Notes under the pieces: model-generated | Told to the model about the DNA's origin: nothing | Databases searched by the model: none | The model's input: the letters and a program-made list of their open reading frames with translations, nothing else | Assembly: GCA_024712425.1 (NCBI GenBank) | Contig: JAKRWE010000001.1 | Coordinates: forward strand, 1-64,000 | Direction of reading: 5' to 3' | DNA: 64,000 nucleotides | DNA from: Chromatiales bacterium | GTDB taxonomy: Bacteria; Pseudomonadota; Gammaproteobacteria; Chromatiales; Chromatiaceae | Program-made: the position numbers and the translations under genes | Part shown: positions 389-29,182 of the stretch, piece after piece | Numbering within the stretch: position 1 is the stretch's first letter | Layout: the number at the start of each line of letters is the position of its first letter

Positions 389-3300
389 TCATCGACGGGG
401 TGGATCAGTTCGTGCTATCTCGCCCCAGCCATGGTCGAACGTGAACGTCCGGGCGTGGCCGACGGGGTTCTGGATTCTGAGCACGCGGGCTTGTGCCGGA
501 TCGGTTGCGCGCTCGACCACGTAAAGCCAGTACGCATCGCCCTTTTCGCGCGCGCAGTCGAACTGCGTGTGTGACAGTCCCACAGGACGATCTTGCAAGG
601 TGCCCGTCATCGACTTCACTTCGACCCATCGAATCTGCCTGCCACTGCTGTCGACCTCGAAGAGGTCAAAACCTGGGTTGCCTTCCGGAGTGCGGCGTAG
701 TCCTGGCTCGAGTCGAATGATCAGGTCGATTGCTCGCTCTTCGATCTGCATCCGTTCCTTCTGTTCGAGGCCATCCGGGTCTGGGCCTTCCTCATCTGGG
801 TGCGTGCCAACGTAGGAGATGAACGGTCGCCCCCCCCGGCGTGGCCGGGTGTCCTCATTCCTTGCCCGCCGCCCTTGCCACTGCCCTTGTCTCCGGAAGT
901 GCCGTAGCCGCCTGAGCCGCCGTGACCACCCCATTGCCTTGGTTTCCGCCGCGCGAAGTCCCAGTACCAGTGCGGCCGTGGCCACCACCCCCTGCGCCCG
1001 TATTCACGCCATCACCACCGTCCGGATCAGGAGTGCCAGGTGGGATGTCCGGCATGTCATCGCCGTACAGATCTTTCGCACCGTCGTACACGTCGCCATC
1101 GGACGGCTCGCCGGTCTCCTGTTCGGACTCTGCCGATGGCTCAGTCTGTGGCGCTGGGCTCGCGCTCAGTCGGGATGTCAGCTCGGCGACGATGGTAGGG
1201 TCTCTTCGTAGCAGATCTAGAATGGCCGGGTCGATGCCTGCCTCCTTGGCAAGCTGATCGATGATCGGTGGTTTGAAGGTGATCTTGGTTTGCAGGAACG
1301 GGTTGGGCTTCCAGCCGAGGGTGTCGAATACGACGAGCCCGGGCGGTACAAGCTCGCCGTCGGTACTCGGCACCCAGGCAACCTGATTGAGCGTCCGGAC
1401 GAAGGCGGCATCGAACCCAGCAGTCTTTGTCTCGTGGAAGTAGCCCCACTTGTAGGAGCAGTAGAAGGCGGCAGTACCGCGCGCCTCCAGATCGGCCAAG
1501 GCTTCCCACAGCACCTTTGCTCGGGCGGCGGCATCCTTGGGTTGTAGTTTTGGCAACAACTCCAGCAGCGCTGTCAGGCCGCGAAGGGTGAAGTCCTCTG
1601 GCGGATTTTCCCAGCTCGCACGTTCAAGTCCCGCTTCTCTGCGAATCTGCGCTTTCTCGGAATGCCCAAGTCGTGAGGGCGCTGCTTCGGGGATAAGGTA
1701 ACGGCTTGCACCACACGACACCAGCAGGTCACGAATCTCTTCACCGCGCAGGCAGTCGTACTCATTGTCGACGATCAAGATGTCGGGCACGCCTGCGAAG
1801 AGCTGCTGTAGGCGGTCGGTGGCGATGTAGGCTTCGCTAGGCTTGGCGACATGAGTTTTGCCGTCGCCGGTGTCGACCACCATCACAAAGGTGGTATCGC
1901 GCAAGGCTGACCGGAGCTTTTCCTTCTGCGCGGTTGAGTCAGTGCTGAAAGCTGCACGGATGCGCTCGATGTCGGCGGCGTAGGTATCGTCGTCCACATC
2001 CAACTCTGGCTGCTGGTACTTCGGTAGCAGGTTCCAGATGACGTCATCCACCGGATCAGGTTCGGTGATGCCCAGCGAAATCAGGAACAGGCGCACCTCG
2101 GGTGTCGCACACACCGCGCGGCGCATCGTCGGAAAACTGGTGGCAATGGCGCTGGGCAAGAAAGCCTTGGCTTTTCCGTTTTCGCGAGCGACGACGTGTG
2201 TTCCGTCATCCAGGCGGATGAGCGGGACAGTATCCAGATGGCGACGCAGCGCCTTCTCCTGGCCGCTCAGGAACTCGTACAGACGTAACACCCACTCGTC
2301 GGATTGCGCCTCAAGGAACGCCTTCGTCAGGTTCGGCACTAGCTTCGTCGGCGTGATCTCGTCGATGTCGAGTTCGCGCATCAGGTATTGGCGAATCTCG
2401 GGTGCTTTGTCCTGGGTGATGTCGCCTGACAACCAAGCGGCGACCTCCGTACCGAACAGCGCCGCAACCTGATCCGGGCTGAACAGTTCGCGCAACTCTT
2501 GCGTTCGCGCTAACTTGGCCTGCTGGGCGGTGACATGCCCTCCGTCGAAGGTTGGTAGCAGCGCCTCGTCCTGAAACGCCTGCCGGACGGCGTCGAACAT
2601 CGGCGCAAACCGCGAGCCCTTTGGGAACTTCTCGCGGTCGAGCGGAAGGCGGCGCAGCGCCGCGAGATCCAGTATTTCGTTGTCCCGCATCCAGCGCATC
2701 GCCTCCACCAACAGGCTGGAGGTTTCCATGACCAGATGCTGGTTCCACGGATCGCCGGGAGGGATGTTGTCGCGGCTGGGCGTGGTGCGGTACGGCCCCT
2801 GCACGAGAAAACCAAGGCGGCTCTCGACTACAGTCGGGAAGAACACCACCAGGGACGACCTGGCCAGCGGCTGCACGGCCCAGCGCCCTGGAATGAGTTT
2901 GTCCGCAACCAGCGAGAAGGCGATCTCAACCCGCCCGACCCTTTTCCCCTCAGCAGAAAACGCATTGCGGCGGAATACCAGCCAGTTCTGGTCGACCTCG
3001 GGTTGCCCACTCTCTTGGCCGATCACCGTGACGCGGTGCACGTTGGGTCCGAGTACTTCGGAGGCGTTTCGTAGGTAGAAACCGGAAGGGCCGCCCTCAA
3101 CGTTCCAGTTGATCTCCTCGATGTGAGGCAGGAACAGCAGCGTGTCCGGCCCCAAGTGACGAAACCCCGCCGTGATGTTCGACGCTGCGCTCGTGTCTTC
3201 CGGTTTCAGGGGAAGGATGATCTGGGTCTCGTCAGCCGCGCGTGCCGAACGCGGCAACCGCTTCGGGAAGACGTAGTTCTCGATAGCAAAGTCCTCGTCG

Positions 3301-3692
3301 CCCGAGTGAATCTCTGGAAGATCGGTAACGGTGTAGACAGACTTGAAGCCGAGGCCGAAGCGCCCGATGGACGACTCGTTCTTGGTGCTCTCGGCGATGT
3401 CGCAGACGCTACGGACGTCGGCCTCGTCGAACGGCTTGCCGAAATGCGAGAGCATCAGGCGGGTCGAGTTCAGGGTGAATGCAACCTTGCGTGATCCGCG
3501 CCACTCGCCACGGCGACCGAGCGCGTCCTCGGCGTTTTGCAGCAGTTCGAAGATGAAGTGCGTGCGGTCGTCGTACAGCCCAGCGGCCAGCTTGCCGGAC
3601 TTCTGAGCCCCCTTGGTGCCGTAGCTTTCCCGGTTCTCCTCGCAAATTGCCTCGTAGTTCGACGCCACGGCCACTCCCTCTTGGTCAGGCAC
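389..3692 (-). CDS. Sacsin/NO VEIN-like GHKL (HSP90-type) ATPase with C-terminal DUF3883 domain; frameshifted in a Gly-rich linker
   Basis: N-terminus NYEAICEENRESYG...FIFELLQNAEDA is typical of the sacsin/NOV ATPase; C-terminal ORF ERMQIEERAIDLIIRLEPG...WVEVKSMTG looks like DUF3883. Split ORFs 855..3692 and 389..988. Confidence 0.72.
830..837. repeat. C8/G8 homopolymer tract at one of the frameshifts
   Basis: Plus-strand CCCCCCCC; reading frame changes here between the Gly-rich linker and the DUF3883 part. Confidence 0.7.
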
Positions 3693-3780
3693 CGATTTGG
3701 ATGCCAGGTTTGCTCAAGTCTGAACATTTGTGGAATAGTATGACAATATGAGGCGGTAAACCAAGCGCAGCGCAGATGAC

Positions 3781-4005
3781 ATGGGAGAGCTGATGAGCGA
3801 CCAGCCGGACGAAATCCTCACCATTGACGAGGTTGCCGCCTACTTGAAGGCAGGCAAGCGAACGGTCTATCGCCTCGCGGCGAGCGGCAAGCTCCCGGCG
3901 TTCAAGCTAGGTGGCACCTGGCGCTTCCGGCGCGGCGACCTGGACAAGTGGATCGCCAGCCGCATCGGCAAGGCGATGGTGGATGACGGCGAGGGGGTGG
4001 AATGA
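3781..4005 (+). CDS. Excisionase-family helix-turn-helix protein
   Basis: ILTIDEVAAYLKAGKRTVYRLAASGKLPAFKLGGTWRFRRGDLDKWI; stop overlaps the next start (ATGA). Confidence 0.85.
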   Translation: MGELMSDQPDEILTIDEVAAYLKAGKRTVYRLAASGKLPAFKLGGTWRFRRGDLDKWIASRIGKAMVDDGEGVE

Positions 4006-6923
4006 CCAGCAGCGCCGCAGCCCTCCAATCAAAGGCCAACTTCCAGCAGCTCGAAGCCATCCTCGCTAACGATGGCCCGGTGCTCATCATCGCGGGCCCC
4101 GGGTCGGGGAAGACCTTCACGCTTGTCGAGCGGATCGTCTACCTGATCACACACAAGGGCGTCGCGCCGGAGTCGCTGTTTGTCGTCACCTTCACCGACA
4201 AGGCCGCGCGTGAGCTGACAACTCGCATCTCCAACCGGCTAAGCGATCTGGGCATCAAGTTCAACCTGCACGAGATGTACTTGGGCACCTTCCACTCCAT
4301 CTGCCTACGGTTGTTGGAGGACTTCCGCGAGTTCACCCGCCTCAAGCGCAACTTTACGCTGTTCGATCAATTCGACCAGCAGTACTTCCTTTACCAGCAC
4401 ATCAAGGACTTCCGTGAACTACCCGATGCTCAGTTTGTCATGGGTGACGGCCGGACGGGCCGTTGGGCGCAGTCGGAGAACCTGCTCAAGTGGGTCAACA
4501 AGGTCAGCGAAGAGGCGCTCGACCCCGCCACGTTGGCAGCAGCCCCAGAGCCGGAAATCCGCGCTCTGGCCGCGTGCTTTGCCAAGTACCAGGAACTGCT
4601 GCACGAGCACAACTCATTGGACTTCTCCGGCATTCAGTACGAAGCTCTGCAACTGCTGGAGAAGCATCCCGAGGTGCTGGCGCAGCTGCGCGACAAGATC
4701 ACCTACTTGATGGTGGACGAGTACCAGGACACCAACACCATCCAAGAGCGCATTCTTCTGCTGCTCGCAGGTGAGCAGCGCAATCTATGTGTAGTTGGTG
4801 ACGACGACCAGGGCTTGTACCGATTTCGCGGCGCCACCATCCGCAACATTCTGGAGTTCCCCGCGCTGTTTCCTGAGGGCCAGTGCAAGCAGGTCAAGCT
4901 GACCGTCAACTACCGATCGCACCCGGATATCATCCGTTTCTACAACGAGTGGATGCACGAACAGAACTGGGATGACGGCACACGCGTCTTCCGGTTTGCC
5001 AAGCAAATTGGCCCGCGCGAGGACGACTTCCCTGATATGCCCACGGCGGTACGGCTGGCAGCCACCGATAACAAGGACGAAACCACCAACTGGCACGCCG
5101 AGGTTCTGGCCTTCCTCAACAGTCTGAAGGCATCCGGTAGGCTAACAGACTGGAATCAGGTTGCATTCTTGTTCCGCTCTGTGAAGAACAAAAAGGTGGT
5201 GGCGCTTGCGCGCTTCCTCGAAGCGCAGGGCGTGCCCGTGTACTCTCCCCGCTCCAACATGTTCTTCGAGCGTGAAGAGATCGGCTTGATGATCGGTGCG
5301 CTGATCTTCCTCTTCCCGCAATTCCCCAAAGTGCGGGCGTGGGCCGAAGGTGTGCATCTGGACATTTGGGACTACTACGACCACCTTTGCTTCAAACCTT
5401 TCACGGACGAGCTGCGCAAGCCAGAAAATAAGCCCCTTCTGGATTGGGCGCGTCCGCTGGCCAAACGCCACGCGATACTCACGCAGAACACCGATTACGC
5501 CTTCTCCGGGTTGTTCTACCAGCTGCTCCAGTTCCCGCTATTCTCGAGCTTCCTCTCGGAGGAGGCGCTGCAGGGCGTCGACAAAGGCCGCGCCGCACGC
5601 AACCTAGCCACCTTCTCCAAGCTGCTTACCAAGTTCGAGTACCTGCACTTTGTCAGCGTGCTAAACCCGGAATTCCTGGAAAAGAATCTCCGCGACCTGT
5701 TCAACCAGTTCCTGCGCTTCCTAAAGGATGGCGGCATTGGTGAGTACGAGGATGAGGCCGAGTACGCGCCCAAGGGCTGTGTCTCGTTCCTCACCATCCA
5801 CCAGTCTAAAGGGTTGGAATTTCCGGTCGTGGTGTGCGGCTCACTAGAGGCTGTACCGCGAAAACAACATACCGCGCTCGACGAGCTGCTGGAGGATGGT
5901 GGTTACCTCTCCAAGCCGCGCTTCGAGCCACTGGAGCACATCAAGCACTTCGATTTCCGGCGGCTGTTCTACACGGCCTTTTCGCGCGCGCAGAACCTGC
6001 TGGTGCTGGCCGCACAGGTGCGCAACGGCCGGGGCTTGGGCAAGTCGCCGTCGAAGTACTTCAAGCGCCTGTTCTACGAGCTCCCCAGCTGGCGTGACAT
6101 CGATCTGTCGGCTCTGACCTTCGAGGCCGTCAAGCAGATCAATCTCAGGCAGGAGTATTCGTTCACCTCGCACATCACGGTGTTCGAAAACTGCGCCGAA
6201 CAGTACCGCTTCTTCAAGGAGCTGGAATTTGTGCCCATCCGCAAGAGCCCGATGCTGTTCGGTACCCTGGTTCACCAGACCATCGAGGACATCCACAAGA
6301 CCGTGCTGCGCGGCGAGGAGCACACCATCACCTTTGACGCCATCAAGGGCTGGTTTTCGGCCAACTACGCCATGCTCTCCAAGAAAGAGCGCGTCTATCT
6401 CGCGCCCTCCTCGCAACAAGCCGCGCTGCTGCACGTGCTGCGCTACTACGAGCGAGAGAACAGCAATTGGGATCGCATCAAAGAAGCCGAGGTCGAGATA
6501 TCGCTAGTCAAGGACCAGTACATCCTCAAGGGCAGCGTTGACCTGATCCGAGGTGAGAGCGACACAGTCGAGATCATCGACTTCAAGTCGGAGAAGAAGC
6601 CTGACATGGAGAAGGACCGGGTGCGGCTGCGCCAGTACCAGCACCAGCTCGAGGTGTACGCCCACCTCGTAGAAGAGCGCACCGGCCAGAAGGTCAGCCG
6701 GATGCATCTCTACTACACCGGTGAAGACGGCGGGAACCCTTATGTTTCGTTCGACAAGGATGACCACGCCATCGGAAAAACCATCGCCCGCTTCGACGAC
6801 ATCGTGGCGCGCATCGAGCGGCAGGACTATCGTATGGCCTCGCGTCCGACCAAGCTGTGCCAGAGCTGCGACATGCGCGCCTACTGCGACAACAAGAATT
6901 GGACGTTCAGGAAAGACGACTAA
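4002..6923 (+). CDS. UvrD/Rep-type SF1 helicase with C-terminal RecB/AddB-like PD-(D/E)XK nuclease and Cys cluster
   Basis: Walker A GPGSGKTFTLVER, MVDEYQDTN, nuclease EIIDFKSEKK, FENCAEQYRF plus CQSCDMRAYC (probable 4Fe-4S). Confidence 0.88.
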   Translation: MTSSAAALQSKANFQQLEAILANDGPVLIIAGPGSGKTFTLVERIVYLITHKGVAPESLFVVTFTDKAARELTTRISNRLSDLGIKFNLHEMYLGTFHSICLRLLEDFREFTRLKRNFTLFDQFDQQYFLYQHIKDFRELPDAQFVMGDGRTGRWAQSENLLKWVNKVSEEALDPATLAAAPEPEIRALAACFAKYQELLHEHNSLDFSGIQYEALQLLEKHPEVLAQLRDKITYLMVDEYQDTNTIQERILLLLAGEQRNLCVVGDDDQGLYRFRGATIRNILEFPALFPEGQCKQVKLTVNYRSHPDIIRFYNEWMHEQNWDDGTRVFRFAKQIGPREDDFPDMPTAVRLAATDNKDETTNWHAEVLAFLNSLKASGRLTDWNQVAFLFRSVKNKKVVALARFLEAQGVPVYSPRSNMFFEREEIGLMIGALIFLFPQFPKVRAWAEGVHLDIWDYYDHLCFKPFTDELRKPENKPLLDWARPLAKRHAILTQNTDYAFSGLFYQLLQFPLFSSFLSEEALQGVDKGRAARNLATFSKLLTKFEYLHFVSVLNPEFLEKNLRDLFNQFLRFLKDGGIGEYEDEAEYAPKGCVSFLTIHQSKGLEFPVVVCGSLEAVPRKQHTALDELLEDGGYLSKPRFEPLEHIKHFDFRRLFYTAFSRAQNLLVLAAQVRNGRGLGKSPSKYFKRLFYELPSWRDIDLSALTFEAVKQINLRQEYSFTSHITVFENCAEQYRFFKELEFVPIRKSPMLFGTLVHQTIEDIHKTVLRGEEHTITFDAIKGWFSANYAMLSKKERVYLAPSSQQAALLHVLRYYERENSNWDRIKEAEVEISLVKDQYILKGSVDLIRGESDTVEIIDFKSEKKPDMEKDRVRLRQYQHQLEVYAHLVEERTGQKVSRMHLYYTGEDGGNPYVSFDKDDHAIGKTIARFDDIVARIERQDYRMASRPTKLCQSCDMRAYCDNKNWTFRKDD

Positions 6924-8916
6924 TGAGCAAGAACACTCCCGCGCAGGAAAGCCTGCAACTGGCCACGCCGGATAGCGGCACCACCCACGTCGAGAAGTAC
7001 GAGTTCGAGCCAATCAAGGGCTACCCGATGCTGAACTGGCGCGGCAAGCGCCCCTTCACCTCGACGCAGTACTACCCGGCGCAGTTGAAGGAGGTTCATG
7101 GCGAAGAGGTGGACGGCTGGCGCAACAGGATTTACTGGGGAGACAACCTGCAGGTGATGAGTTACCTGCTCAAGCAGTTCCGGGGAAAGGTGGATCTCGT
7201 CTATATTGATCCTCCCTTCGACTCTAAAGCCGATTACAAGAAAAAGATTGCGTTGCGAGGCCACAAGGTTATCAACGATGGGACAGCATTCGAGGAAAAA
7301 CAATATGCTGACATATGGTCGAATGACGAATATCTCCAATTCATGTATGAGCGACTGATCCTAATCAGGGAGCTAATGGCTGAATCTGCGAGCATCATTC
7401 TTCATGCCGACTATCACAAAGCACACTTGCTTAGGTGCATCCTTGACGAAGTATTCGGCGCAGATAATTTCAGAAATGAAATAATCATCAAGCGTCCAAT
7501 TACCAAGAACCTTCAAGCGCAATTTAAAACTATCAATGCATTGTCCGCTGGACATGACAACTTGTTTCTTTACAGCAAGTCCAAGTCAACGAGATACAAG
7601 CAGGCCTACGACCCCTACGAATCAGAAAATAGCGATGGCTACTGGCATCGATTTTGGAGCGGCGAAGATCGACCGACGATGAGATATCCGCTTCTTGGTG
7701 TGACCATCGAGCATGGTCAGTGGAAGTGGAGCGAGGAAAGAGCTCTTAGAGCACATGAAAACTATCAAACATTTCTCGCCAAGTTTGCGGAACACCTCAC
7801 GCGTGAAGGGACTGGCTTGCCCTGGTTGATTACTGGAGAGAGACTGGCGAGGAATTAGAGTTTTTGAGGAAATCGTCTACTGGAACAATTGAGAATTGGT
7901 ATCCGCCTGCAACGCAGAAGCTCGCTAACACACTTTGGCTTAACTGCAAAGCATACGAGAACAGAAAGGATTATCCGACCCAAAAGCACGAGGAGCTTTT
8001 AAGGTTGATTATCGATAGGTTTTCCGAACCAGGCTATCTTGTGTTCGACTGCTTCATGGGTTCAGGCACCACTCAGTCAGTCGCTACGAAACTCGGCCGT
8101 CGCTTCATCGGTGCGGACATCAACCTCGGTGCGATCCAGACGACCACCAAGCGGCTGATAAAAGTGGCTGAAGAACTGGGCCAGAAGCCACTTGACCCCG
8201 ACACCAAACACTACGCCGGCTTCGAGGTCTACAACGTCAACCACTACGACATCTTCCGCAATCCGGTGCAGGCCAAGGAGCTGCTGCTGGAGGCGCTGGA
8301 GGTGCAGAAGCTGGAGTTCAGCGCCGTGTTCGATGGCGAGAAGGACGGCCGCATGGTCAAGATCATGCCCGTCAACCGCATCGCCACGCGCGCCGATCTG
8401 AACGAGCTGATCGCGGGATTTGACTACAAGGCCTGGGAGCGCAAGCAGAACGAGAGGCCGAACCGCCCCGTGGAGAAGATCACCCTCATCTGTATGGGGC
8501 ATGAGCCTGACCTGGCCGCGCAGTTGGAGCTTGCCGCCAAACCCTTCAAGATCGACGTGGAGGTGGTGGACATCCTGCGCGACAAGGCCAATCTGGAGTT
8601 CAAGCGCGACTCTGAGGCCAAGGTCGTGGTGAAGAATGGCGAGTTGACCATCGAGCGCTTCTACCCGATGAACCTGTTGCAGAAGCTCTCCTTGCAGAAG
8701 GAGTCGGTCGAAGACTGGAAAGAACTGGTCGAGTCGGTGCTGATCGACTGGAACTACGACGGCGCGGTGCTGCAACCGGCGGTAGTGGACATCCCCGGCA
8801 AGAATGAGATGGTCAAGGGCATTTACAAGGTGCCGGAGGATGCGGGCACCATCCGCGTGAAAATCACCGACCTGCTGTCGGAGTCTTGGGAAGGGAGTGT
8901 GGCCCATGGCGACTAA
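6923..8916 (+). pseudogene. Type III-like DNA methyltransferase (Mod), frameshifted
   Basis: ORFs 6857..7858 and 7864..8916 are in different frames; DLVYIDPPFDS in the first and VFDCFMGSGTTQSVATKLGRRFIGADI in the second. Confidence 0.82.
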
Positions 8917-11589
8917 ACGTGCATCCAAGGCGGTGAGCGCGTCGCTCGACTTTGCCTTCTTTCAATTCCTCTGGCAGTTCTATCAGGCAAACCGGGGCAC
9001 GATCCGAACGCACTACAAGGAGCTGACCCGTAAGTTCCTCGACTTCAACAACCCAGAGAAAACCCCCCCCAAAGCCTTTCTGCGCCAGCCGCAGTACGAG
9101 GCTCTGGAAATCTACGTCTTTCTCAAGGAGTTCCTGGGCAACGCCAAGGTCGAGGAGATATTTCAAGCCTGGTTTGAGAAGAAAGGCCGCTTCGCCGGTC
9201 GCGCAGAAGGTGGCCTGATCGGAAATACCCATCAGGCGGACCTGCTAGACCAGGTCACGCAGGATCAGTACAAGGCTGTGTTTGCGGCGATGCGAAAAAA
9301 TTCGCGTGCCTACCCAAACTACATCTTCGCGCTGACGATGGGAACGGGCAAAACCATCCTCATGGCGACCTGCATCTTCTACGAGTTCCTGCTAGGCAAT
9401 AAATTCGATAAGGATCTCCGCTACTGTCACAACGCGCTGGTGTTCGCACCGGACAAAACGGTGCTGCAGTCGCTGAAGGAAATCGAGTCCTTCGACCTGA
9501 CCCGCGTGGTGCCGCCGGAGTATGTTAACTTCCTGACCACTCACCTGCGCTTCCACTATCTTGAGGATGCAGGCACTTCGCTAGACACGCTGGATGGTTC
9601 GCGTTTCAACGTCATCGTCTCGAACACGCAGAAGATCATCCTCAAGCGAAAACGCAAGGAGAAGACTAGCGTTGATAGGTTGTTCGGTGCTGTCGGTGAC
9701 ACCTTAGAAGTCTCCGGTGTCTATGCCGCCGCCGCCGATCTCTACGACTTCGATCAGCCAGAAAAAGAAGGTGAATTGACCACCAACCAGCGTTTTGAGA
9801 AGTTACGTCGCCTGGAACAGTTGGGCATTTACGTGGACGAGGCGCACCACTCCTTCGGCAAGGCGTTGGCAAAGGACATGGGTGTTGGAGCAAAGATAAC
9901 CGACACCAGTCTGCGCACCACCATCGACATCCTCGCCGCCAGCCTGAACGCGGCCGGCACGCGGGTGGTGGCCTGCTACAACTACACCGGCACGCCCTAT
10001 GTGGGACGCGAGGTGTTGCCCGAGGTGGTCTATGCCTATGGCCTGAAGGAAGCCATCGACAATGGCTTCCTCAAGAAGGTGACCCTGCACGGCTACGCCA
10101 ACACCCGCACAGACGAGTTTGTCGACATCGCCATCGAGACCTTCCTCAAGGAAACGGGTGACTTGTGACCGGAAGGCTGCTTCCCAAGCTGGCCTTCTTC
10201 GCCGCCACCATCGATGAACTGACCGGCGAGTTGAAACCGGCCGTGGAGCGCACGCTGCTCAAACACGGCATCCCCACCTCGCACATCTTGGTCAACGTGG
10301 GGGACCCCAAGCTCACCACCAACGACGACATCCGCGAGTTCAACCGCCTAGACACTGAATCGTCGGAAAACAATTCATCCTGCTGGTCAACAAAGGCCGT
10401 GAAGGCTGGAACTGCCGGTCGCTTTTCGGCGTGGGACTGTTCCGCGAACCCAAGTCCAAGGTCTTCGTGCTGCAGGCCACGATGCGCTGCCTGCGCGCCA
10501 TCGGTCAGGCTCAGCACACTGGGCGTGTCTTCCTCTCGGACGACAACCTGAACACGCTGAACGATGAGCTGCAGCAGAACTTCCGCATCAGCGCCGACGA
10601 GCTGCAGAAAACCGCCAAAGACAAGGAGCGGGTCGAAGTGCGCGTGGTCGAGCCGCCGGTCAAGATCAAGCTGGTGCGTGTGCGCAAGCAGTACCAGATG
10701 CGTGAAAAGCAGGTGGTGACCGGCCAAGCGTTGATGCCCGAACGGGCTGACCCACAGAAGTGGGGGGGAGCTGGTCGAGAAATACCGCCTGATCGAAACC
10801 CAGCAGGACAGCCTGACCGCCGCCGACGCGGCGGGCGCTTCCGGAAGCCGCACCTTTGATCTGACGGCGCGCCGGGAAAAGCAAACGTTCTCACGGCTGT
10901 CATTGGTGGCCGAGGTATCGCGCTACCTCAATCGCAGCCCGCTAGAAATCGAAGATCTGCTCGACGCGACCAAAGAAGGTGCCGACGCACTCGTGGCCAT
11001 GACCAATGAGTTCAACGAGCTGCTTTACGACGAGATTATCCCACGCCTGTTCCGCCAGCTCTACGAACTCGACGAATCGCAGCAGACCGAGGAGCACGAG
11101 GTCGAGTTGATCAAGATACCTCCCAACGGTCACTACGAGGTATCGGCTGCGAAGGACAAGATCGTTCGGATGAACGACCGGCAGATCAAAGACGAAGAGC
11201 GCGCCAAGAGTTTCCACCTCGACACTTATTGCTTCGACTCGGGCTCGGAGAAGTGGTTGTTCTGGGACCTCCTTCGCGAGCGCCGGGTAAAGAAGATCTA
11301 CTTCACCGGGATGCTGACCCACGGCCAGTCTGACTTTTTCATACAGTACATCGACCCAGATTCGCGCACAGTGCGCAGCTACTACCCAGATTTCATCTTT
11401 CAGCGCGAAGAGCCGGATGGCAGCGTGAAATACGTCATCGTCGAGGTGAAGGCTGACAACCAGATTGAAGACGCTGTTGTCCAGGCCAAAAGTGACTTTG
11501 CACAGCAGATCGCCGTGGCCAGTGGAATGGAGTACCGAATTCTCAAGTCGTCGGATGCGGACAAGCGGCATTTCCGGGTGTTGTTGTGA
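8906..11589 (+). pseudogene. Type III-like restriction subunit/DEAD-DEAH helicase (Res), several frameshifts
   Basis: MGTGKTILMA, YVDEAHHSF; later ORFs 10165, 10431 and 10903 continue the protein, ending in YYPDFIFQ...YVIVEVKADN (PD-(D/E)XK-like). Confidence 0.82.
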
Positions 11590-11863: not shown

Positions 11864-12775
11864 CTATGCGTTAAGGACATATAGACTTGCTTCTTCGTAT
11901 CTCCTTTTTGTGAGTCCAGCGAGTTTTCTGCCACCGGCCCACACCCACCGCATAAACTCCCGTGGCACCTGGGCATGCTCCTCCCGGTTCACCTTCCGCC
12001 GTAGAGTAGATCTCTGAAGTGCCCCGGTACCAAGGTTGAAGGTGAACGAAACAAGGGTATCGAACTGCCCATCAGTCAGGGGCACGTTAATCAGCCGCAG
12101 CACGCCCCGCTCGGCCCAGCGCACGTCCCTTTGCAGAAGTACCTCCGCCTCTTGCTCATTGATGCCATCCTCGAACCGTTCCCGCTCCTCCTCCCGCACC
12201 ACATGGCCATAGCCGATGGTCGGGTAGCCAGCCGGGCAGATGTAGATCATGGGACTGAACCCCTCGAACCGCTTGATGAGGTCCAGCCCCTCCTGGGTGA
12301 TGTGGCGCATGTCACTTGCCCGCGCCTTGGCCAAGGCGCGCTGGCCGAACCAGAAGCTCATGACAGCCGCAAACAGGGCCTGGGTCTCCGGGTCCCAGAT
12401 CCGGGGCAAGGCGATGGTGAACGCGAGGCCCTCGTCGGCTATCAGAACATACAGGGCGCTGAGCTTCACGGCCGTGAACAGCAGGAAGAAGGCGTAGGTG
12501 ATCACCGGGCGCACGGAGGCACGCAGGCCGTCCACCCATTTGACGCCCGAAGGCTTGCTGTCGTGACGGTAAAGGGCCTTGCTCTCGGCGATGTCTGCCT
12601 CGACGGCGATCTCCTCCAGACGCTGGGTATGGCCCAGCCGCATCTGCTCCATCTGGCGGTCGAGAATGGCCAGTTCGTGCTTGCGGTCCTGGTGGTCCTG
12701 CCAGAGTCTGAGCAGGTCGGGAAAGGCGCTGGAGATGAACCCCAACAGGCTGCCAAGTAGCGTCAGCATGGTCAC
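11864..12775 (-). CDS. Fused holin-like membrane domain + GH24 (T4-type) phage lysozyme
   Basis: N-terminal 3TM holin-like segment ending FWFGQRALAKARASD, then MRHITQEGLDLIKRFEGFSPMIYICPAGYPTIGYGH. Confidence 0.8.
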   Translation of the reverse strand: MTMLTLLGSLLGFISSAFPDLLRLWQDHQDRKHELAILDRQMEQMRLGHTQRLEEIAVEADIAESKALYRHDSKPSGVKWVDGLRASVRPVITYAFFLLFTAVKLSALYVLIADEGLAFTIALPRIWDPETQALFAAVMSFWFGQRALAKARASDMRHITQEGLDLIKRFEGFSPMIYICPAGYPTIGYGHVVREEERERFEDGINEQEAEVLLQRDVRWAERGVLRLINVPLTDGQFDTLVSFTFNLGTGALQRSTLRRKVNREEHAQVPREFMRWVWAGGRKLAGLTKRRYEEASLYVLNA

Positions 12776-13474: not shown

Positions 13475-13815
13475 CAGATGCCTCCGTAGTAGTTGCCGTA
13501 CTGGTAGCCGTAGCCGGCGCGGTCCACCTCGATGCGGTGCCGGTGCAGGCTGTCGAGGGCGCCGCGCTGGGCGTCGATTTCCACCGTGAGGTGGCCATTG
13601 AGCCGTCCGCCGGGCAGTGCGCTGTCGGCCACCTCCTCGGGCCAACCGTCGGTGGTCGCAGCGAGGCCTGTGCGCGTGCGCAGCAAGGTGCCCGTCTCGC
13701 CGTAGTAGTGGACGCGGTAGGTCACGCTTGGCTCGGGGCCGATGTCGCCGTCGGCCTGGGCCACCAGGTAGGCGGTCTGCTGGGTGCGGTCGCGGTGGGA
13801 CCAGGCGAGCGTCAC
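13474..13815 (-). CDS. Phage tail-associated protein
   Basis: 113-aa ORF in tail operon, start/stop abutting neighbours. Confidence 0.55.
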   Translation of the reverse strand: MTLAWSHRDRTQQTAYLVAQADGDIGPEPSVTYRVHYYGETGTLLRTRTGLAATTDGWPEEVADSALPGGRLNGHLTVEIDAQRGALDSLHRHRIEVDRAGYGYQYGNYYGGI

Positions 13816-15731
13816 GGGCCCACGATGGCGGCCGGATACGCCGTGCCGTTGATGCGCACGTTGCCCGGCGGGAACGGCAGGCCCTGCCGGCCCATAAGGT
13901 TGAGGGTCGGCCCGCCGGTCACCGCGACCTTGTTGCCCACGTCCGTCACGGTGTGAGGCTCGAGCCAGACTCCGATGCTGGTCGCCGGGGCGCGAACGGT
14001 GCCGTCATACCCAGGCGAGGGCCCGGCGCCGATCAGCCAGGTGCCGGCCGTATGCGCTACGGGTACGGTATCGAGCACCGCCCGTTGCAAGGTGACGGTG
14101 CCGGCGGTCTCGTCCACCGCGAGCACTCCGACCGCCTCGACGGCTTGGCCTGCGGTGGTGACCAGCCAGGCGTAGTCGCAATCGGCGAACAGGGCGGCGT
14201 CGGTCAGATCGGTGACCGCTACCATGACGTCATCCACGGCTTGGGGCAGATCGGCGCCCAGGCGGGCGGCCGGGCTGTAGCCGGCGGTATTGCGATATTC
14301 GGCCGTGCCCGTGGTGTCGCCTGTGTAGAGCCGCCACTCGCTCTGGGCCTGTCCGTTTCTTACCGCCAGCGCGGCGACGTAGGTATCGGTGTCCTCCACC
14401 ACGCCAAGTTCCGCGCGGCTCAGGGTGTGGGCCAGATCCCAGTATGTGGCCTCGTTCGCCACGCTCATCGCCGGTGCCCGGGCCGAGGTGTCGTCCGGCA
14501 CCCAGTTGGTGTCGTTGTCGCCGATGATGGCGTTCTGCCCCAGTGCGAAGACGTCCTCCACGCAGGTGATCGTCATGCTGTGATCGGTATGATCACCCAG
14601 GTCGATGGCGCCTACCCGCAGCACCATCTCGGCGATGCCCAGTTCCGGCCAGTCGAGTACGATCACGTCCCCCGGCAGGGGCTGACCGGAAGCGGAACTG
14701 TCGCCCCGCGGGTTGATCTTCAGCTTGACCCGGGCCAGTGGTATCGAGAGCGAGCGCAGGTCGCGCAGCGCCACCCTGGCGGCCAGGGCGTCGTCGGTGA
14801 TGCCCGGATAGTCCCGCTTTTCTGCCACCACGCCGCCCTGGGCCTCGATGTTGGCGAGGTTGTGGACGGTGAGCGACTTGGGCTTGCCGGTGTCCCGGTC
14901 GGTGTAGTTGACAGTCAGCTCGTTGACCGTCTCCGCCCAGTCGGGCCGCTCGAAGGATTCCAGTGCGATGATGTTGTGCGGCCCGAAGTGGCGCGCGTTC
15001 CACAGGTCCGGCTCGCGGATCAGGCGCAGGGTGAACCGCCCGCTGGCGTCGATGACCAGCACCCCGCCGATGTGGTCGAGCACCTGCTGCACGAACTGCT
15101 CGATGGGCGACTGGCGGGTCCAGAGCAGGTTCAGCCCGAAGCCCTCGTTGTAAAGCGTCCACGAGGCGGACGAGAAGCTGCCCGTGTCGATCATCGAGGG
15201 CGCATAACCCATTCCCCAGCGGGTGTCGGTCAGGCAGGCGTAGAGGATGGCCGCCGGGTTCATGCCGTTGGCGAGCTGCACCTGGTAGCTGCTGAACGGA
15301 CTGGGCGCGGCCGGATCCCAGCCCGATAGAAACCGCCGTACCCGGGCCGCGATGGGCTTGAGGTAGGGGTTGTTGGCGGCCAGATAGCACTTGCGCAGCA
15401 CCAGCCCCGCCACGCCGCGGAAAGCCGGCACGGTGCCGCCGCCGGCCATGCGGGACTGCAGGTAGTCGTTGGCCGTCTGGGTCGCCTCGCCCAGCAGGAC
15501 GTCGATGGCACCGCTGATCCCGCCCTCGCGCTTCTCGCCGCCGAACAGGTTGGGCCGGTCGACCTGCAAGCGTTTCGGATTGCTGCCCGCCACGCTGCCG
15601 CTCCAGAAGCTGCGCCCCTGCATGCGCAGCTGGGTGATGTCGTCCACCGGACCGTGGCAGAGCACCAGGTGCATGCCCATGTAGTAGCGGTAGCCGACGA
15701 TCTGGCGGCTGCCGCCGCTGCTACCGCCCAT
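13812..15731 (-). CDS. Phage tail tip/host-specificity-type protein
   Basis: 639-aa ORF, GYRYYMGMHLVLCHGPVDDITQLRMQGRSFW, position in tail module. Confidence 0.7.
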   Translation of the reverse strand: MGGSSGGSRQIVGYRYYMGMHLVLCHGPVDDITQLRMQGRSFWSGSVAGSNPKRLQVDRPNLFGGEKREGGISGAIDVLLGEATQTANDYLQSRMAGGGTVPAFRGVAGLVLRKCYLAANNPYLKPIAARVRRFLSGWDPAAPSPFSSYQVQLANGMNPAAILYACLTDTRWGMGYAPSMIDTGSFSSASWTLYNEGFGLNLLWTRQSPIEQFVQQVLDHIGGVLVIDASGRFTLRLIREPDLWNARHFGPHNIIALESFERPDWAETVNELTVNYTDRDTGKPKSLTVHNLANIEAQGGVVAEKRDYPGITDDALAARVALRDLRSLSIPLARVKLKINPRGDSSASGQPLPGDVIVLDWPELGIAEMVLRVGAIDLGDHTDHSMTITCVEDVFALGQNAIIGDNDTNWVPDDTSARAPAMSVANEATYWDLAHTLSRAELGVVEDTDTYVAALAVRNGQAQSEWRLYTGDTTGTAEYRNTAGYSPAARLGADLPQAVDDVMVAVTDLTDAALFADCDYAWLVTTAGQAVEAVGVLAVDETAGTVTLQRAVLDTVPVAHTAGTWLIGAGPSPGYDGTVRAPATSIGVWLEPHTVTDVGNKVAVTGGPTLNLMGRQGLPFPPGNVRINGTAYPAAIVGP

Positions 15732-15921
15732 CGCGCCTCCTGCGGGCCTGCTCCACCGCGCGTGCCGCCATGGCGTCGCGGGTCTCGATCAGGCGGGCGG
15801 CCTCCACGCCTTCTTTCAGGAACCGGTGCCAGTCGATGCCGTGGCGCTTGCACCAGAGCCGCGCGCCGGGGATGCAGAGGCCGGCGAGGCGCACGTCCTC
15901 GATGGTCACGATCAGGCTCAC
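15721..15921 (-). CDS. Small phage tail-region protein
   Basis: 66-aa ORF overlapping neighbours in operon style. Confidence 0.55.
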   Translation of the reverse strand: MSLIVTIEDVRLAGLCIPGARLWCKRHGIDWHRFLKEGVEAARLIETRDAMAARAVEQARRRRDGR

Positions 15922-16151
15922 TTCTTGCCGCCCCCGCCGGAGTAGATGGGCTGTGCCTCGCTGTCGCCGTACCAGACCACGTTGGGCGCCTCGATCAGCA
16001 CCTCACCGAACACTACCGGGATGGGCACGCCTTCCTCGGCCACCGGGGCGCTGAAGTCGCTGGCGGGTTTGGTGTTCTCGACCCGCGGCTTGGGCGTGAG
16101 CGCGATCTGGATCAGCGCCGAGACAACGAACAGGACCAGCTGTACCCACAT
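15918..16151 (-). CDS. Small phage tail protein
   Basis: 77 aa: TKPASDFSAPVAEEGVPIPVVFGEVLIEAPNVVWYGD. Confidence 0.6.
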   Translation of the reverse strand: MWVQLVLFVVSALIQIALTPKPRVENTKPASDFSAPVAEEGVPIPVVFGEVLIEAPNVVWYGDSEAQPIYSGGGGKK

Positions 16152-16161
16152 GCGATCTTCC

Positions 16162-17001
16162 TCAGTAGGCGCTTTCGTTGAATGGATTCTTGCGCGGAAT
16201 CCACGGAAAACCGCCGAAGTTGTCGGCGTTGCTGAAGCGGCTCTGGCAGGTCTGCAGGGTGTGGTCGCGGCCGGCGTAGAGGCTCACCGTCTCACCGACC
16301 TGCAAGGGGGCGGGATAGATCGGCGTGATGCCCGAGCCATAGTAGTCGTTGCCCTCGATCATGTGCCGGGTACCATCGGCGCATTCGAGATACCCGCCCG
16401 TGAAGCGGTCCGGCGGGAAACTCGCCCCCTCGAACCAGACGAAGCGGCCGTCCACCTGCGAGACGGTGAAGGATTCGGCCACTGGCGTTGCCTTGCACTC
16501 GGCGCCATAGAGGACATGGGGACAGCGCCGGGCATAGAGCCGGCGCAAGCCCAATCGCTTGAGGCTGATGCTGGCCGGCTCGCAGCGGATGCGCGCCTCC
16601 CGCTCCTCGAAGATCACCTGCAGCACCCGCCCGGTCCAGACCAGCACCCAGCCCCAGTCGCTGCCGAACCGGCGGTAGATGCTGATCCCCATGGGTTGGG
16701 GCTGCGGCGCGCCGCGGTACTCGCGCACCAGGTCCAGATCCCGTGGACAGCGCAGGTCGATCGAGCGCCGACCGACCTCCGGGCCCAGCCCGAGACTGCC
16801 CCGCGAGATGGCCGCGGGCCGGTAGGTCCGGTCGCCGTTCCAGTCCACGTTGGCCAACACCTCGCGGCTGGCCGAAGTGTAGTACCAGGCGGTGGTGCCC
16901 CGGGTGAAGCGGTAGAGCTCGGTGACGTCGTCGGTGTAGCAGTGGAAGCCGGGACCGGACGGAATCTCGCCGCCCGGCGGCCGGCCGATCAGAATCGGCA
17001 T
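16162..17001 (-). CDS. DUF2163-type phage/GTA tail protein
   Basis: FTRGTTAWYYTSASREV...RRLYARRCPHVLYGAECKA. Confidence 0.7.
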   Translation of the reverse strand: MPILIGRPPGGEIPSGPGFHCYTDDVTELYRFTRGTTAWYYTSASREVLANVDWNGDRTYRPAAISRGSLGLGPEVGRRSIDLRCPRDLDLVREYRGAPQPQPMGISIYRRFGSDWGWVLVWTGRVLQVIFEEREARIRCEPASISLKRLGLRRLYARRCPHVLYGAECKATPVAESFTVSQVDGRFVWFEGASFPPDRFTGGYLECADGTRHMIEGNDYYGSGITPIYPAPLQVGETVSLYAGRDHTLQTCQSRFSNADNFGGFPWIPRKNPFNESAY

Positions 17002-17016
17002 CGTCTGTGGCTCCTG

Positions 17017-18171
17017 TCAGAACGGAATGTCCCCGCCGCCACGCAGGTAGGGATGACAGCACGCCAGGGTCATGAACCGCGCGGCCACCTCCAGCACCTC
17101 ATTGGTGTGCCAGGTGAACTCCACCCGGTCCTGGTCGAGCCGGACAAAGTGCAAAGGCGTGACGGGCGTGCCCACCGGCACGTCCACGGGCAGCGGATCG
17201 GCCAGCAGCAGTCGCGCCTCGGTCTCCGACTCGGCTTCGAGCCGTGAGACGCGCACCGCCACCGGCGGCTGGGCGGTGGGACGGATCAGCAGTCCCAGCC
17301 CGGGTTCTTCCCAGTGCCAGGGCAGCCGGGCGCGGCGCAGCAGCAGATGGTCATCGCCGGCGCTTCCCGCCTGCGTCAACGCAAGGCCCCTGAACTCGTC
17401 GGGTAGCCAGACGGGGTTGAGGCGTCCGGCCAGATACTCGAACAGTCCCAGCAGCCGGTCGGTGGCCGCCTGGCCCGCCGCCAGCCAGCGGCGGCTGAGG
17501 ATGCGGGAGGGCCGATCGTCGACCCGTCGGATCCAGGGCCCGCCAAGCCGGTTGTCGATCCGTTCGATCCGCGCCTGGTACTCGATGGAAGGTTCCGGCT
17601 GCCACTGTTCGGCATCATGGATGACCGGCACGCCCTCGAGGGTCAGGTCCGGGGTGAAAGGCCATTCCCACACCCGCTCGTCGAGCCGGATCTCGACCGG
17701 CTGCGAGGTCACTGCGGCGCAGTGACGCCGGGCGGTCGTAGCGTCCGCGACCGTGCCCCGGACCAGCGGCACGAAGGTCGAACCGGCTTCCACCGGCCGG
17801 GCCAGCGGCAAATTCAGGCTGGCCTGATCCAACGCAGTATCGAAGGCGGTGACGCTCACCTGCTGCACCTCATTGTCCGGTGCCTGAATCAGCGCCGGCC
17901 CCTGGCCCCAGCTGTCCAGCGTCTCGGTCTGGGTGGCACGCATCAGCGGATCGGTCACCGCATCAAGTGGGACGGTCGTGCCGCCTGCGGCCACGTCCGC
18001 CGTCACCCGGCGGGCCACCGGCCAGACCGGAAACAGCGCCTCGCGGCCCTGGTGCCCGGTGAGCCAGGCATCCAGGCCGCTGGCGCCGGCATCCCAGGCC
18101 GTGACGAGCATCTCGAGGGCCCGACGCGGATGGCGGCGCAGGCGGATGCGCGACTCGGTGCCCTCCCCCTC
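17017..18171 (-). pseudogene. C-terminal part of a phage tail protein split by an IS element
   Basis: ORF 17017..18111 stays open to the IS edge; N-terminal part is at 19830..20186. Confidence 0.7.
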
Positions 18172-18242
18172 TGTCAGGATAGTTGTCCATTCTGTTGAAA
18201 GGGACTCTAATTGAGATCCCGAGGGGATGAGAGAGAGGAACC

Positions 18243-18734
18243 ATGGGTTACCCGAAAGAACGTAAAGAGGCGGTTTTGAAGAAGATGCTGCCGCCGAACA
18301 ACAGGCCGATTCCGGTTATTGCCCAGGAAGAAGGCATCAGTGAAGCAACGCTGTATAACTGGCGCAAGGCCGCACGGGCCGAAGGACGGCTGCTGCCCGA
18401 TGGGGACAGCACACCAGTAGGCTGGAGTTCGGCAGACAAGTTTGCTGCTGTACTGGAGACGGCAGCCCTGAACGAACAGGAGCTGGCCGGGTACTGCCGG
18501 GAGCGGGGCCTGTATCCGGCCCAGATTCAGCAGTGGCAGGAGGCCTGTGCCCAGGCCAACGACTGGGACCGAAGCCAGAACAAACGCCTGCAGGAAGCCC
18601 GCAGAAACGATGAGAAACGGATCCGCAAACTGGAGAAGGGACTGCGCCACAAGGAAAAGGCGCTGGCTGAAACGGCGGCCCTGCTGGTGCTGTCAAAAAA
18701 GCTCGAGGCGATCTGGGGGGACGAGGAAAGATGA
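18243..18734 (+). CDS. IS transposase OrfA-like
   Basis: HTH region IAQEEGISEATLYNWRKAARAEG; overlaps orfB start. Confidence 0.8.
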   Translation: MGYPKERKEAVLKKMLPPNNRPIPVIAQEEGISEATLYNWRKAARAEGRLLPDGDSTPVGWSSADKFAAVLETAALNEQELAGYCRERGLYPAQIQQWQEACAQANDWDRSQNKRLQEARRNDEKRIRKLEKGLRHKEKALAETAALLVLSKKLEAIWGDEER

Positions 18735-19806
18735 CCAGTGGCCCGGATCGCAAAGAGATACTCGAACTGGTCGATGAGGCGGAACAGTCCGGTGCACGGC
18801 ACTCACGGATTGCCGAGTTGCCGGGGTTGCATGCCCGCACCTTGCGGCGCTGGCGGGAGGCGGAAGAGGAAGGGCGCGCGGATCGTCGTCCGACAGCAGA
18901 GCGTCCACGTCCGGTGAATGCACTGAGCGAGGAAGAGCGTGAAGCCGTCCTGGAGCTGTGCAATCAGCCTGAATATGCCCATCTGCCGCCCTCCCAGATC
19001 GTCCCCCGGCTGGCGGACGAGGGCATCTACCTGGCCTCGGAGTCGACCTTCTACCGCATCCTCAGAGAGGCAGGCCAAGCCACGCACCGGGGACGCGCCC
19101 AGCCACCTCAAAAGCTGGCGCGCCCCCGGCCCTGCCGGGCCACAGGGCCCAACCAGGTGTGGAGCTGGGACATCACCTACCTGGCGGCGGCCATCCGCGG
19201 CACCTTTTACCGGCTCTACATGGTGGAAGACATCTTCAGCCGGAAGATCGTCGGCTGGGAGATCCATGAACAGGAAAGTGCAGTCCATGCCTCGAGCTTG
19301 ATCAGCAAAGCCTGTCTGCGCGAAGGCATTCAGTCTGGTGATTTGGTCCTGCATGCCGACAATGGGGGCCGATGAAGGGCGCCACCATGTTGGCCACGCT
19401 GCAACGGCTGGGTGTGGTGCCGTCATTCAGCCGGCCATCGGTGAGTGATGACAACCCCTATTCGGAGGCCCTGTTCCGGACGCTGAAGTATGTTCCCAAC
19501 TATCCGGACAAGCCCTTCGAGAGCCTGGAGTCGGCGCGGGAATGGGTGCATGTTTTTGTCGCCTGGTACAACGAGGACCACCGCCACAGCGCTATTGGCT
19601 TCGTCACGCCGGCCCAGCGCCATCGTGGAGAAGATGCGGACATCCTTGTCGCACGCAAGGCGGTTTATGAACAGGCCAAGGCCAGGCACCCGGAGCGTTG
19701 GTCGGGCATGACCCGGGACTGGTCCAGAAAGGAAGTTGTCTGGCTCAATCCTGCGCATGACGACGATGCACACGAGGAACCCGACAATAGAGCAGTAGCT
19801 GCGTGA
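18731..19806 (+). pseudogene. IS transposase OrfB-like (rve/DDE), frameshifted
   Basis: GPNQVWSWDITYLAAAIRGTFYRLYMVEDIFSRKIVGWEIHE...LHADNGG then frame change to MKGATMLATLQRLGVVPSFSRPSVSDDNPYSEALFRTLKY. Confidence 0.8.
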
Positions 19807-19829
19807 AAAAAGTGACAACTATCTTGACA

Positions 19830-20186
19830 AACACCGCCGTCGCGCGAGCGCAGGATCTGGGTCTTCCACTCCCACCGTTCCACCCAAGGCTGTGACCAGT
19901 CGTGCCGGAAGGCGAAGATCCCCCGCGGCGGCGGCTCACGCCAGACCACCTCGATGAGGGTGGCGAGCAGCGCAACGGGTGGATCCGGTCGGGCCGTGCT
20001 CTCCGCCTTGAGGGCATCGACCCGAACCGGCGGATCGGGCCGGACCGCGGGCTCGGCGACCTGCTGGAGCAGATCCGACGGCGGCAGCGGCCGTGCCGCA
20101 GGTTCCAGCAGCGCCTGATCGAGTTCAGATCCGGGTACCCCCTTGCTCGCCGGCTCAATCGCAACCTGATCGACCTGCGCGGCCAT
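19830..20186 (-). pseudogene. N-terminal part of the IS-split phage tail protein
   Basis: MAAQVDQVAIEPASKG...VERWEWKTQILRSRDGG then IS end. Confidence 0.65.
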
Positions 20187-20189
20187 GGC

Positions 20190-21221
20190 TTATCCTTTTT
20201 CGATGCCGAACTCGGCGGCGTTCAGTTCCGCCTCCGTCCAGTCCACGCCCGCGGCGGTCTGCTCGAACACCGTGGTCAGATAAGCGGGATCGGTGGTCAG
20301 CGCCTGTGCCGCGCCGGTAGCCACCGTGGCGCCGGACTGGGTCAGGGCCTTGAGGGTGCCCGCGCCGGCGTCGGTCTTCTTCGCCAGCGCCGTGACCTGT
20401 ACCCCCAGGACCGTGGGCGTGTTCATCGCCGGCAGCGGCTCGAAGGCGTAGCTGTTCCGGTCGCCGGTGTTGGCGGCGGTCACGTAGTCGCTGTGATCGG
20501 GGAGCGGCTCGTCGACCATCTCCCAGTTCTGTCCCGCGCCCGACGGCGTCCACTGGCTGAAGCTGCCGGCACCCATCGGGTGCAAGGCATCGATGCGCAC
20601 GTCGCCCAGGTAGTCGTTGTTGCGGGTGCCCGAGCCGTCGGCCAGATAGAAGTCGTCGAACAGCAGCTCCACCGGGTACGGCTGGTCGGCCCAGCAGACG
20701 CCGCCGGCCACCAGGTTGCCGCCGGTGGGAATGCTCTGGCCACTGATCGTTAGCCAGGTCTGGCTGTTGACCCGCAGTTCCAGCAGCCCGGTGCCGTTGC
20801 CCTCCACCACCTTCAGTTCGAGGCGGTTCCAGGTCTGGGCCGAGATGGCCCGCAGGGACTGGCCCGTCGGAAATCCGCCCTGACCGATGCCCAGCAGCCC
20901 GATGGCGTTGACCGACACCTCATAGCGCTGGTTGCCGGCGGTGCGCACGAACAGCAGCGGAAAGCGGTCCGGCGGCAGCAAATCGAGGCGAAAGGCGCAG
21001 CCGAGGATGACCCGGCTCACGCCGTAGCCGATCTCGCGCACCATGGCCACGCCCTGGGTGTTGGCGGGAAAGCGCAGTGCGGACGAGGCACTCCGGCGTC
21101 CGGGCATCCGCTCGCACTGGGGCGCGTACTGGGCCTTGGCGTAGCCGTAGTTGGGCACGCCGTCGGGCTTGAGGGCCTGTGGATCGAAGTGATCGAAGCC
21201 GTCGACGAACAACAGTGCCAT
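20190..21221 (-). CDS. Phage structural (tail) protein
   Basis: MALLFVDGFDHFDPQALKPDG..., 343 aa between tape measure and tail genes. Confidence 0.6.
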   Translation of the reverse strand: MALLFVDGFDHFDPQALKPDGVPNYGYAKAQYAPQCERMPGRRSASSALRFPANTQGVAMVREIGYGVSRVILGCAFRLDLLPPDRFPLLFVRTAGNQRYEVSVNAIGLLGIGQGGFPTGQSLRAISAQTWNRLELKVVEGNGTGLLELRVNSQTWLTISGQSIPTGGNLVAGGVCWADQPYPVELLFDDFYLADGSGTRNNDYLGDVRIDALHPMGAGSFSQWTPSGAGQNWEMVDEPLPDHSDYVTAANTGDRNSYAFEPLPAMNTPTVLGVQVTALAKKTDAGAGTLKALTQSGATVATGAAQALTTDPAYLTTVFEQTAAGVDWTEAELNAAEFGIEKG

Positions 21222-21222
21222 G

Positions 21223-24390: not shown

Positions 24391-24452
24391 GGTGGATTGA
24401 TCAGCGTTGTTTTGCTACACTCTGACCATTCTAGTCAGAATAGAGGTGCGTC

Positions 24453-24704
24453 ATGCGTCATTGGCAAATGCAGGAGGCCAAGGCCAAGCTCTCCGAAGTC
24501 ATCAAGGATGCCGAGCGCGAAGGCCCCCAGGAGATCACGCTGCACGGCAAGCCGGTGGCGGTCGTTTTGTCGCGCGAACACTACGAGCGGCTGACCGGCA
24601 CGGGTGAATCGCTGGTGGCCTTCATGCGTCGTTCCCCTCTCTACGGTGTCGAGGAGGTTAATCTCGAGCGGGACAAAAGCCTCACGCGCGAGGTCGAGCT
24701 TTGA
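24453..24704 (+). CDS. Phd/YefM-family antitoxin
   Basis: MRHWQMQEAKAKLSEVIKDAEREGPQEITLHGKPVAVVLSREHYERL. Confidence 0.9.
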   Translation: MRHWQMQEAKAKLSEVIKDAEREGPQEITLHGKPVAVVLSREHYERLTGTGESLVAFMRRSPLYGVEEVNLERDKSLTREVEL

Positions 24705-25748: not shown

Positions 25749-25892
25749 GGCGCAGTTCCCGTTGCAGCCGCTCGATGGCGGCCTTGTCGCCCTGGGCGCC
25801 GATGCTGACCACCGTCAGCGTGGCAAGCAGCCGCTCGCGGTCGATCCGGGCCTCGGCCTTAAGAAAGGCGTTCATCTGAGCCAGCGTGTAGT

Positions 25893-26309: not shown

Positions 26310-26317
26310 CGCTCACC

Positions 26318-27070: not shown

Positions 27071-27072
27071 GG

Positions 27073-27237: not shown

Positions 27238-27243
27238 GGGGTT

Positions 27244-27612: not shown

Positions 27613-27619
27613 GGCGGGT

Positions 27620-29181: not shown

Positions 29182-29182
29182 C

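Follow-up and report, generated by a model that had tools for sequence, protein, structure and literature searches.

The first 64,000 nucleotides of contig JAKRWE010000001.1 (forward strand; GenBank assembly GCA_024712425.1) of a Chromatiales bacterium, in the following called the window, carry at positions 389 to 11589 a cluster of five genes for a NO VEIN-type ATPase (NOV), a helix-turn-helix protein (HTH), a helicase-nuclease (Hel) and a methyltransferase and restriction protein pair (Mod and Res), and we were interested which of these genes belong together in one defence system. An earlier note on this DNA had proposed that NOV, HTH and Hel may be integral partners of an extended type III-like restriction-modification (RM) system rather than neighbours by chance. 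In our reading, to which we assign a probability of about 0.75, the cluster represents a recently broken, prophage-carried copy of an extended type III-like RM operon of Hel, Mod and Res, together with an optional, clade-specific accessory module consisting of the divergent NOV/DUF3883 ATPase, the AlpA-type HTH and, in some relatives, a HEPN protein. Pfam matches placed NOV on the minus strand of the window and the other four genes opposite to it on the plus strand:

389 to 3707, minus strand: NOV, with the GHKL ATPase part at 855-3707 and the NOV_C part at 389 to about 860 (Pfam SACS and NOV_C)
3708 to 3792: intergenic region, a putative divergent promoter region common to NOV and the HTH operon (sequence comparison)
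3793 to 4005, plus strand: HTH, 70 amino acids, AlpA/excisionase-type (HTH_17, excise and MAD1 models)
4002 to 6923, plus strand: Hel, 973 amino acids, superfamily 1 (SF1) UvrD-type helicase with a PD-(D/E)XK nuclease, reading frame open (Pfam)
6923 to 8916, plus strand: Mod, beta-class N6/N4 DNA methyltransferase (N6_N4_Mtase in both fragments)
8906 to 11589, plus strand: Res, superfamily 2 (SF2) ATPase/helicase with a C-terminal TnsA-like PD-(D/E)XK nuclease (ResIII, Tn7_TnsA-like_N)

The divergent arrangement described before was borne out by domain matches and strands, and the coupling of the four plus-strand genes by their end-to-end overlaps of 4 bases (HTH/Hel), 1 base (Hel/Mod) and 11 bases (Mod/Res), as read from the sequence. 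All five gene products are present according to Pfam, but only two of the five, HTH and Hel, are intact in this assembly.

Homologues were collected from plasmids, E. coli genomes, viral contigs, genome contigs and genome samples, and a Hel was taken as full-length at a profile score over 1,100 bits, which gave 35 distinct loci; the helicase-profile scan of the genome contigs returned mostly unrelated UvrD proteins and about ten usable loci. Hel was followed by Mod and then Res, always in this order, at 33 of the 35 loci (the window and 32 others), with one to a few extra genes interposed at L015, L111, L113 and L121. Intergenic gaps ranged from -11 to +48 bases at 19 loci, overlap being usual. 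When the test was reversed, all 14 full-length plasmid matches of Res turned out to have Hel next to them in the same record. The operon was found in Pseudomonadota, Bacteroidota, Bacillota and Poribacteria, Enterococcus and E. coli included, with a prevalence of 4/369 genomes of the window's class and 5/398 of its phylum (the window's own genome counted in). Judged by sequence, Hel is a true, fixed partner of this Mod/Res pair, and the proposal of an integral partner stood for Hel in all lineages examined. A deletion-like form was observed at L106:1-2180, a locus that lacks Mod and joins the N-terminal third of Hel to the C-terminal half of Res.

Hel matched the Pfam families UvrD-helicase (1.6e-75), PDDEXK_1 (3e-22) and Cas_Cas4 (6e-5), and its nuclease is of the Cas4/AddB-like type with a four-cysteine putative Fe-S motif. 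As the cysteines C731, C953, C956 and C962 were invariant in nine homologues, together with the catalytic residues, the earlier designation as an Fe-S helicase-nuclease is well based, by analogy and for a putative cluster. The ratio of nonsynonymous to synonymous substitution rates (dN/dS) was 0.06-0.08 against close homologues. A UvrD-type helicase fused to a PF12705 Cas4-like nuclease is also what the accessible text of Hudaiberdiev et al. (2017; PMC5704561) describes as a UvrD-Cas4 fusion, whose commonest neighbourhood there contains Mod and Res, with some HTH/WYL genes. A helicase motor combined with an Fe-S PD-(D/E)XK nuclease is likewise reported for AddAB/RecBCD and the bacterial DNA2-like Bad in PMC7430649; in contrast to these, Hel is a single polypeptide in an RM operon, known from sequence. 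Hel also matched the GajB models of Gabija (best 2.4e-58), but unlike GajB it carries a nuclease domain, and no GajA adjoins it in the window. Membership in Gabija was rejected, as no OLD-family gene was among the Pfam and PADLOC matches listed for the cluster. At L111:8959-18501 an OLD-like ATPase with a TOPRIM domain lies between Hel and Mod, which recalls the pair of GajA and the UvrD-like GajB.

The designation of Mod and Res as a type III RM pair held for Mod but not for Res. Mod is a beta-class methyltransferase with the target-recognition domain between the DPPY-type and FxGxG-type motifs, as in type III Mod proteins; the DPP and GSG-type motifs are invariant (DPPF, a variable part, then DCFMGSGTT), the best match of the family in the PDB was EcoP15I Mod (2.6e-31) and hhalign aligned it with classic Mod at 99.8%. 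In the central part of Mod at 7200-8100 the G+C content is 41-49%, compared to about 57-64% on either side, and the alignment with relatives is poor, which fits, as expected, an exchanged target-recognition domain. A C-terminal extension of about 230 amino acids is conserved (AlphaFold model poor, with a predicted local distance difference test score of 58). Res matched ResIII (3e-6) and Tn7_TnsA-like_N (PF08722; 6.4e-10), the latter in place of the type III C-terminal endonuclease PF19778, for which no match was obtained. Intact homologues of Res comprise 868-907 amino acids with invariant helicase and nuclease motifs. The Res profile found no match in the PDB, whereas a control with classic Res reached EcoP15I at 7e-286, and in hhalign only one helicase part aligned, at 22% probability. 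A fold search led to generic SF2 and restriction motors, matches that are not decisive as they come from a weak model (AlphaFold score 64.5, moderate). An EcoP15I-type Res was therefore rejected by sequence. Compared with the type III system EcoP15I, the locus shares the Mod-Res gene pair and a Mod closest to EcoP15I Mod among solved structures, but differs in Res, its TnsA-like nuclease and the additional helicase-nuclease gene, and the furthest the sequences allow is to call the system "extended type III-like".

For NOV and HTH the picture was different from that of the core: Hel, Mod and Res nearly always occurred together, but all five genes, whose rare co-occurrence would by the earlier note have counted against its proposal, did so at only 4 of the 35 loci, so that this check came out divided. 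In a maximum-likelihood tree of Hel with 35 rows, after removal of rows with unseen upstream sequence, NOV was found in five rows, all within one clade of ten (hypergeometric probability 8e-4). The complete divergent arrangement exists at four loci (the window, L096, L098 and L156) and is intact at the latter three; L156, retrieved by the Res query, is from a single-contig genome and has all five genes open. At L013 (Nitrosomonas communis) NOV, Hel and Mod were detected and HTH was not clear, and at L113 an unrelated NOV-like pair lies upstream of Hel. Intact sequences served as NOV query, which recovered two viral NOV relatives from IMG/VR again, and across the collections searched every NOV homologue with more than 60% identity was a neighbour of this Hel. 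The loci rank similarly by NOV identity and by Hel identity. The HTH copies of the four loci are 79-96% identical, and the intergenic block of the window is recognisably conserved in L096, L098 and L156. The same arrangement at four loci indicates that NOV and HTH are not chance neighbours; their restriction to a single clade, about half of which lacks them, gives them the appearance of an accessory module. We conclude that this module has been repeatedly gained or lost, standing between a chance neighbour and a part of the core; the sequences suggest but do not prove that NOV is an accessory partner. HTH itself matched HTH_17 (9.7e-20), excise (6.6e-18) and the MAD1 model (82.6 bits) and is a probable regulator. 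Although this is 2.6 bits over the MAD1 cut-off of 80, membership in MADS was rejected, as the PADLOC and NCBIfam matches listed contain no further Mad protein.

NOV shows the N-box and G-box of an HSP90-type ATPase plus NOV_C (DUF3883), as expected for sacsin/NOV-type ATPases, with Pfam matches to SACS (2.6e-14) and NOV_C/DUF3883 (1.6e-9), a match to a PADLOC TmtA model (3.8e-55) and the conserved motifs ELLQNAEDA and IGRFGxGFKSVY-type. Its intact homologues in L096, L098 and L156 (1,114, 1,121 and 1,091 amino acids) are one protein with both NOV and DUF3883. Directly after NOV a gene for a 229-amino-acid protein with the motif RNQLxHG was found at L096:1402-2091 and L098:5635-6324, plasmid relatives of which are annotated as HEPN; it has no counterpart in L156, and a search for HEPN remnants within the window found none. 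Animal sacsin combines HSP90-like modules with a HEPN domain (PMC3710099), and because the HEPN gene adjoins NOV at two loci, the pair resembles a split animal sacsin. NOV shares the HSP90-type ATPase and NOV_C with the NO VEIN/sacsin family (PADLOC TmtA models), but is divergently coupled to Hel-Mod-Res and followed by the HEPN gene at these two loci. HEPN proteins of this type also occur in other plasmid contexts, with WYL, RecB-like and dynamin neighbours. Distant NOV homologues at L125:4867-11351 (an archaeal plasmid) and L132:7502-13782 (another genome of the window's class) each have a helicase-related protein as partner, the two partners being homologous, which may make up a two-gene NOV system; the archaeal stretch also holds genes for a UvrD-nuclease, a methyltransferase and a helicase. 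At L156:766-2535 a 589-amino-acid protein, by eye an apparent further GHKL-type ATPase (ALKELVDNAWDAD), follows Res at a distance of 8 bases and in the same orientation.

The surroundings of the cluster contained the following features:

124 to 168: 45-base direct repeat, probable far attachment site, 91% identical to 54097-54141
11864 to 12775, minus strand: endolysin, last phage gene before the defence cluster (phrog_7, 2.2e-49)
13812 to 31838, minus strand: prophage structural genes (PHROGs)
13812 to 15731, minus strand: tail protein (PHROGs)
21223 to 24390, minus strand: tape measure protein (PHROGs)
26318 to 27070, minus strand: major tail protein (PHROGs)
30741 to 31838, minus strand: portal protein (PHROGs)
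51352 to 52695, plus strand: serine recombinase, 447 amino acids, probable prophage integrase (assigned by reading its sequence, no family search)
54097 to 54141: repeat partner, probable attachment site at the 3' end of the transfer-messenger RNA (tmRNA) gene
54133 to 54661, minus strand: tmRNA gene

From the repeat at the tmRNA site, the recombinase, and the tail, tape-measure, portal and endolysin genes in between, this is a prophage of about 54 kb that has the tmRNA gene as its integration site; it carries the cluster as cargo, between its endolysin gene and its far end. About a dozen homologous loci, weak and fragmentary matches excluded, were from IMG/VR viral contigs, and the complete phage record NatCom_11578 has at its genome end a helicase, a small gene, a methyltransferase and a large protein with the size and place of Res. 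The prophage region also contains at 42409-42468 an interspersed repeat of about 58 bases, with matches on many other contigs of this genome and in some genomes from the genus.

Comparison with the homologues revealed two frameshifts in NOV (at about 0.83 and 0.93 kb), one in Mod (about 7.8 kb) and three in Res (about 10.17, 10.37 and 10.77 kb). The frames of Hel and HTH are open, as are those of about ten chromosomal genes at 54.7-64 kb. The fragments of the broken genes showed dN/dS values of 0.02-0.17, and the breaks are therefore either recent or errors of the draft, which is an assembly in 426 contigs. It is possible, though we tend to the other view, that the living strain has an intact locus and the frameshifts are sequencing errors, as might be expected from the fragmented assembly, the position of two of the six breaks at short C or G runs and the purifying selection kept by the fragments; but six breaks fell within about 8 kb of NOV, Mod and Res and none within Hel, HTH or the chromosomal genes.

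Several observations weigh against a Hel-Mod-Res core with an optional module. L118 has a full-length Hel alone, without Mod and Res, and Hel relatives with 40-43% identity at two Bacillota loci (L010:4588-8829 and L012:8262-12490) have downstream, in place of Mod and Res, a gene with an RNase_T exonuclease domain, possibly a different two-gene system. Conversely, L157 has a distant Mod-Res pair without Hel. Hel may accordingly be an ancillary repair-type enzyme, which would leave Mod and Res self-sufficient and Hel dispensable for restriction, as a linked repair or recombination nuclease that aids the carrier element, for example by protection or end processing. Its resemblance to PcrA/UvrD, AddA and RecB enzymes would fit this as well, but within the subfamily Hel almost always comes first in the operon, frequently in overlap with Mod, and no close Res homologue without Hel was found among the plasmid matches, so that we regard this explanation as unlikely. 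At the other non-conforming full-length locus, L123:8989-18085 on a Priestia plasmid, Hel is followed by a different, larger methyltransferase (985 amino acids) and an SF2 protein (1,069 amino acids), and Hel is therefore coupled to more than one restriction pair. In addition, the collection contains near-duplicates (L005/L006, L008/L122 and L003/L107/L119/L161) and many loci are plasmid- or phage-borne; the counts therefore overstate independence. NOV, moreover, is missing from half of its own ten-row clade and from all 25 other rows of the tree.

The place of NOV and HTH can be seen in two other ways. They may be a separate defence unit that merely has the divergent promoter and a mobile neighbourhood in common with Hel-Mod-Res, as the distant NOV homologues of L125 and L132 (about 33% identity) adjoin another helicase-related gene and not this Hel, and the HEPN family is found across many contexts. 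As the close NOV homologues in the collections covered were restricted to the neighbourhood of this Hel, and HTH lies between both arms and overlaps Hel, we consider a separate unit doubtful, yet worth keeping in mind. By contrast, the earlier proposal in its full form, with all five genes as one obligate system that requires NOV and HTH, would agree with the four loci of identical divergent arrangement, their recognisable intergenic block and the purifying selection on NOV (dN/dS about 0.12-0.15), but most Hel-Mod-Res operons do without NOV and HTH, among them L001, L002 and L104 from the same clade, which makes an obligate five-gene system very improbable.

For an intact Hel-Mod-Res core we propose the following course of events. 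Mod, going by its methyltransferase family, would mark host DNA at a short sequence set by the target-recognition domain, and Res, probably together with Mod, would sense unmarked incoming DNA, translocate on ATP and cut by its PD-(D/E)XK domain. Hel, with its RecB/AddAB/Cas4-type architecture, may then load on the ends made by Res, unwind 3' to 5' and degrade or nick the strands, so that phage DNA would be cut beyond repair. With less certainty than for these steps, HTH, whose translation is coupled to that of Hel, probably acts at the divergent promoter, binding there to restrain both arms. More speculatively, NOV may be an ATP-driven sensor or a second effector that protects when the core fails. 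Taken further, NOV, with HEPN where present and HTH as a switch, could stand guard behind the core as a second line, a "split sacsin" of bacteria in a two-layer immunity that would be triggered by failed restriction or a pile-up of DNA ends and act via DUF3883 on DNA or HEPN on RNA; this we consider quite unlikely, and mention it as an idea.

Loci with a UvrD-Cas4 fusion, Mod and Res as neighbours and occasional HTH/WYL genes are shared with PMC5704561; its accessible text gives no quantified gene order, reverse test, NOV or NOV-HEPN module, and calls Res type III without differentiation. As far as we could check, the gene order expressed in counts, the reverse test, a Res that departs from the canonical type, the NOV/HTH/HEPN module of one clade, the prophage setting and the decay of the window's copy are new here. 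Within the open-access literature we found no experimental test of a Hel-Mod-Res operon and, on TmtA, DUF3883/sacsin defence and MADS, nothing relevant beyond PMC5704561 and PMC3710099. PADLOC gave no match for two of three intact Res proteins and a weak one for the third, and no NCBIfam model was above its cut-off for Hel, Mod or Res.

The Hel-Mod-Res operon therefore largely escapes current defence annotation, and it travels on plasmids and temperate phages. If our reading is true, a helicase-nuclease fixed in a restriction operon across phyla would mean that these systems bring their own machine for the destruction of DNA ends and do not rely on RecBCD. The NOV-HEPN addition, in turn, would offer a concrete bacterial setting for the study of sacsin-like ATPases.

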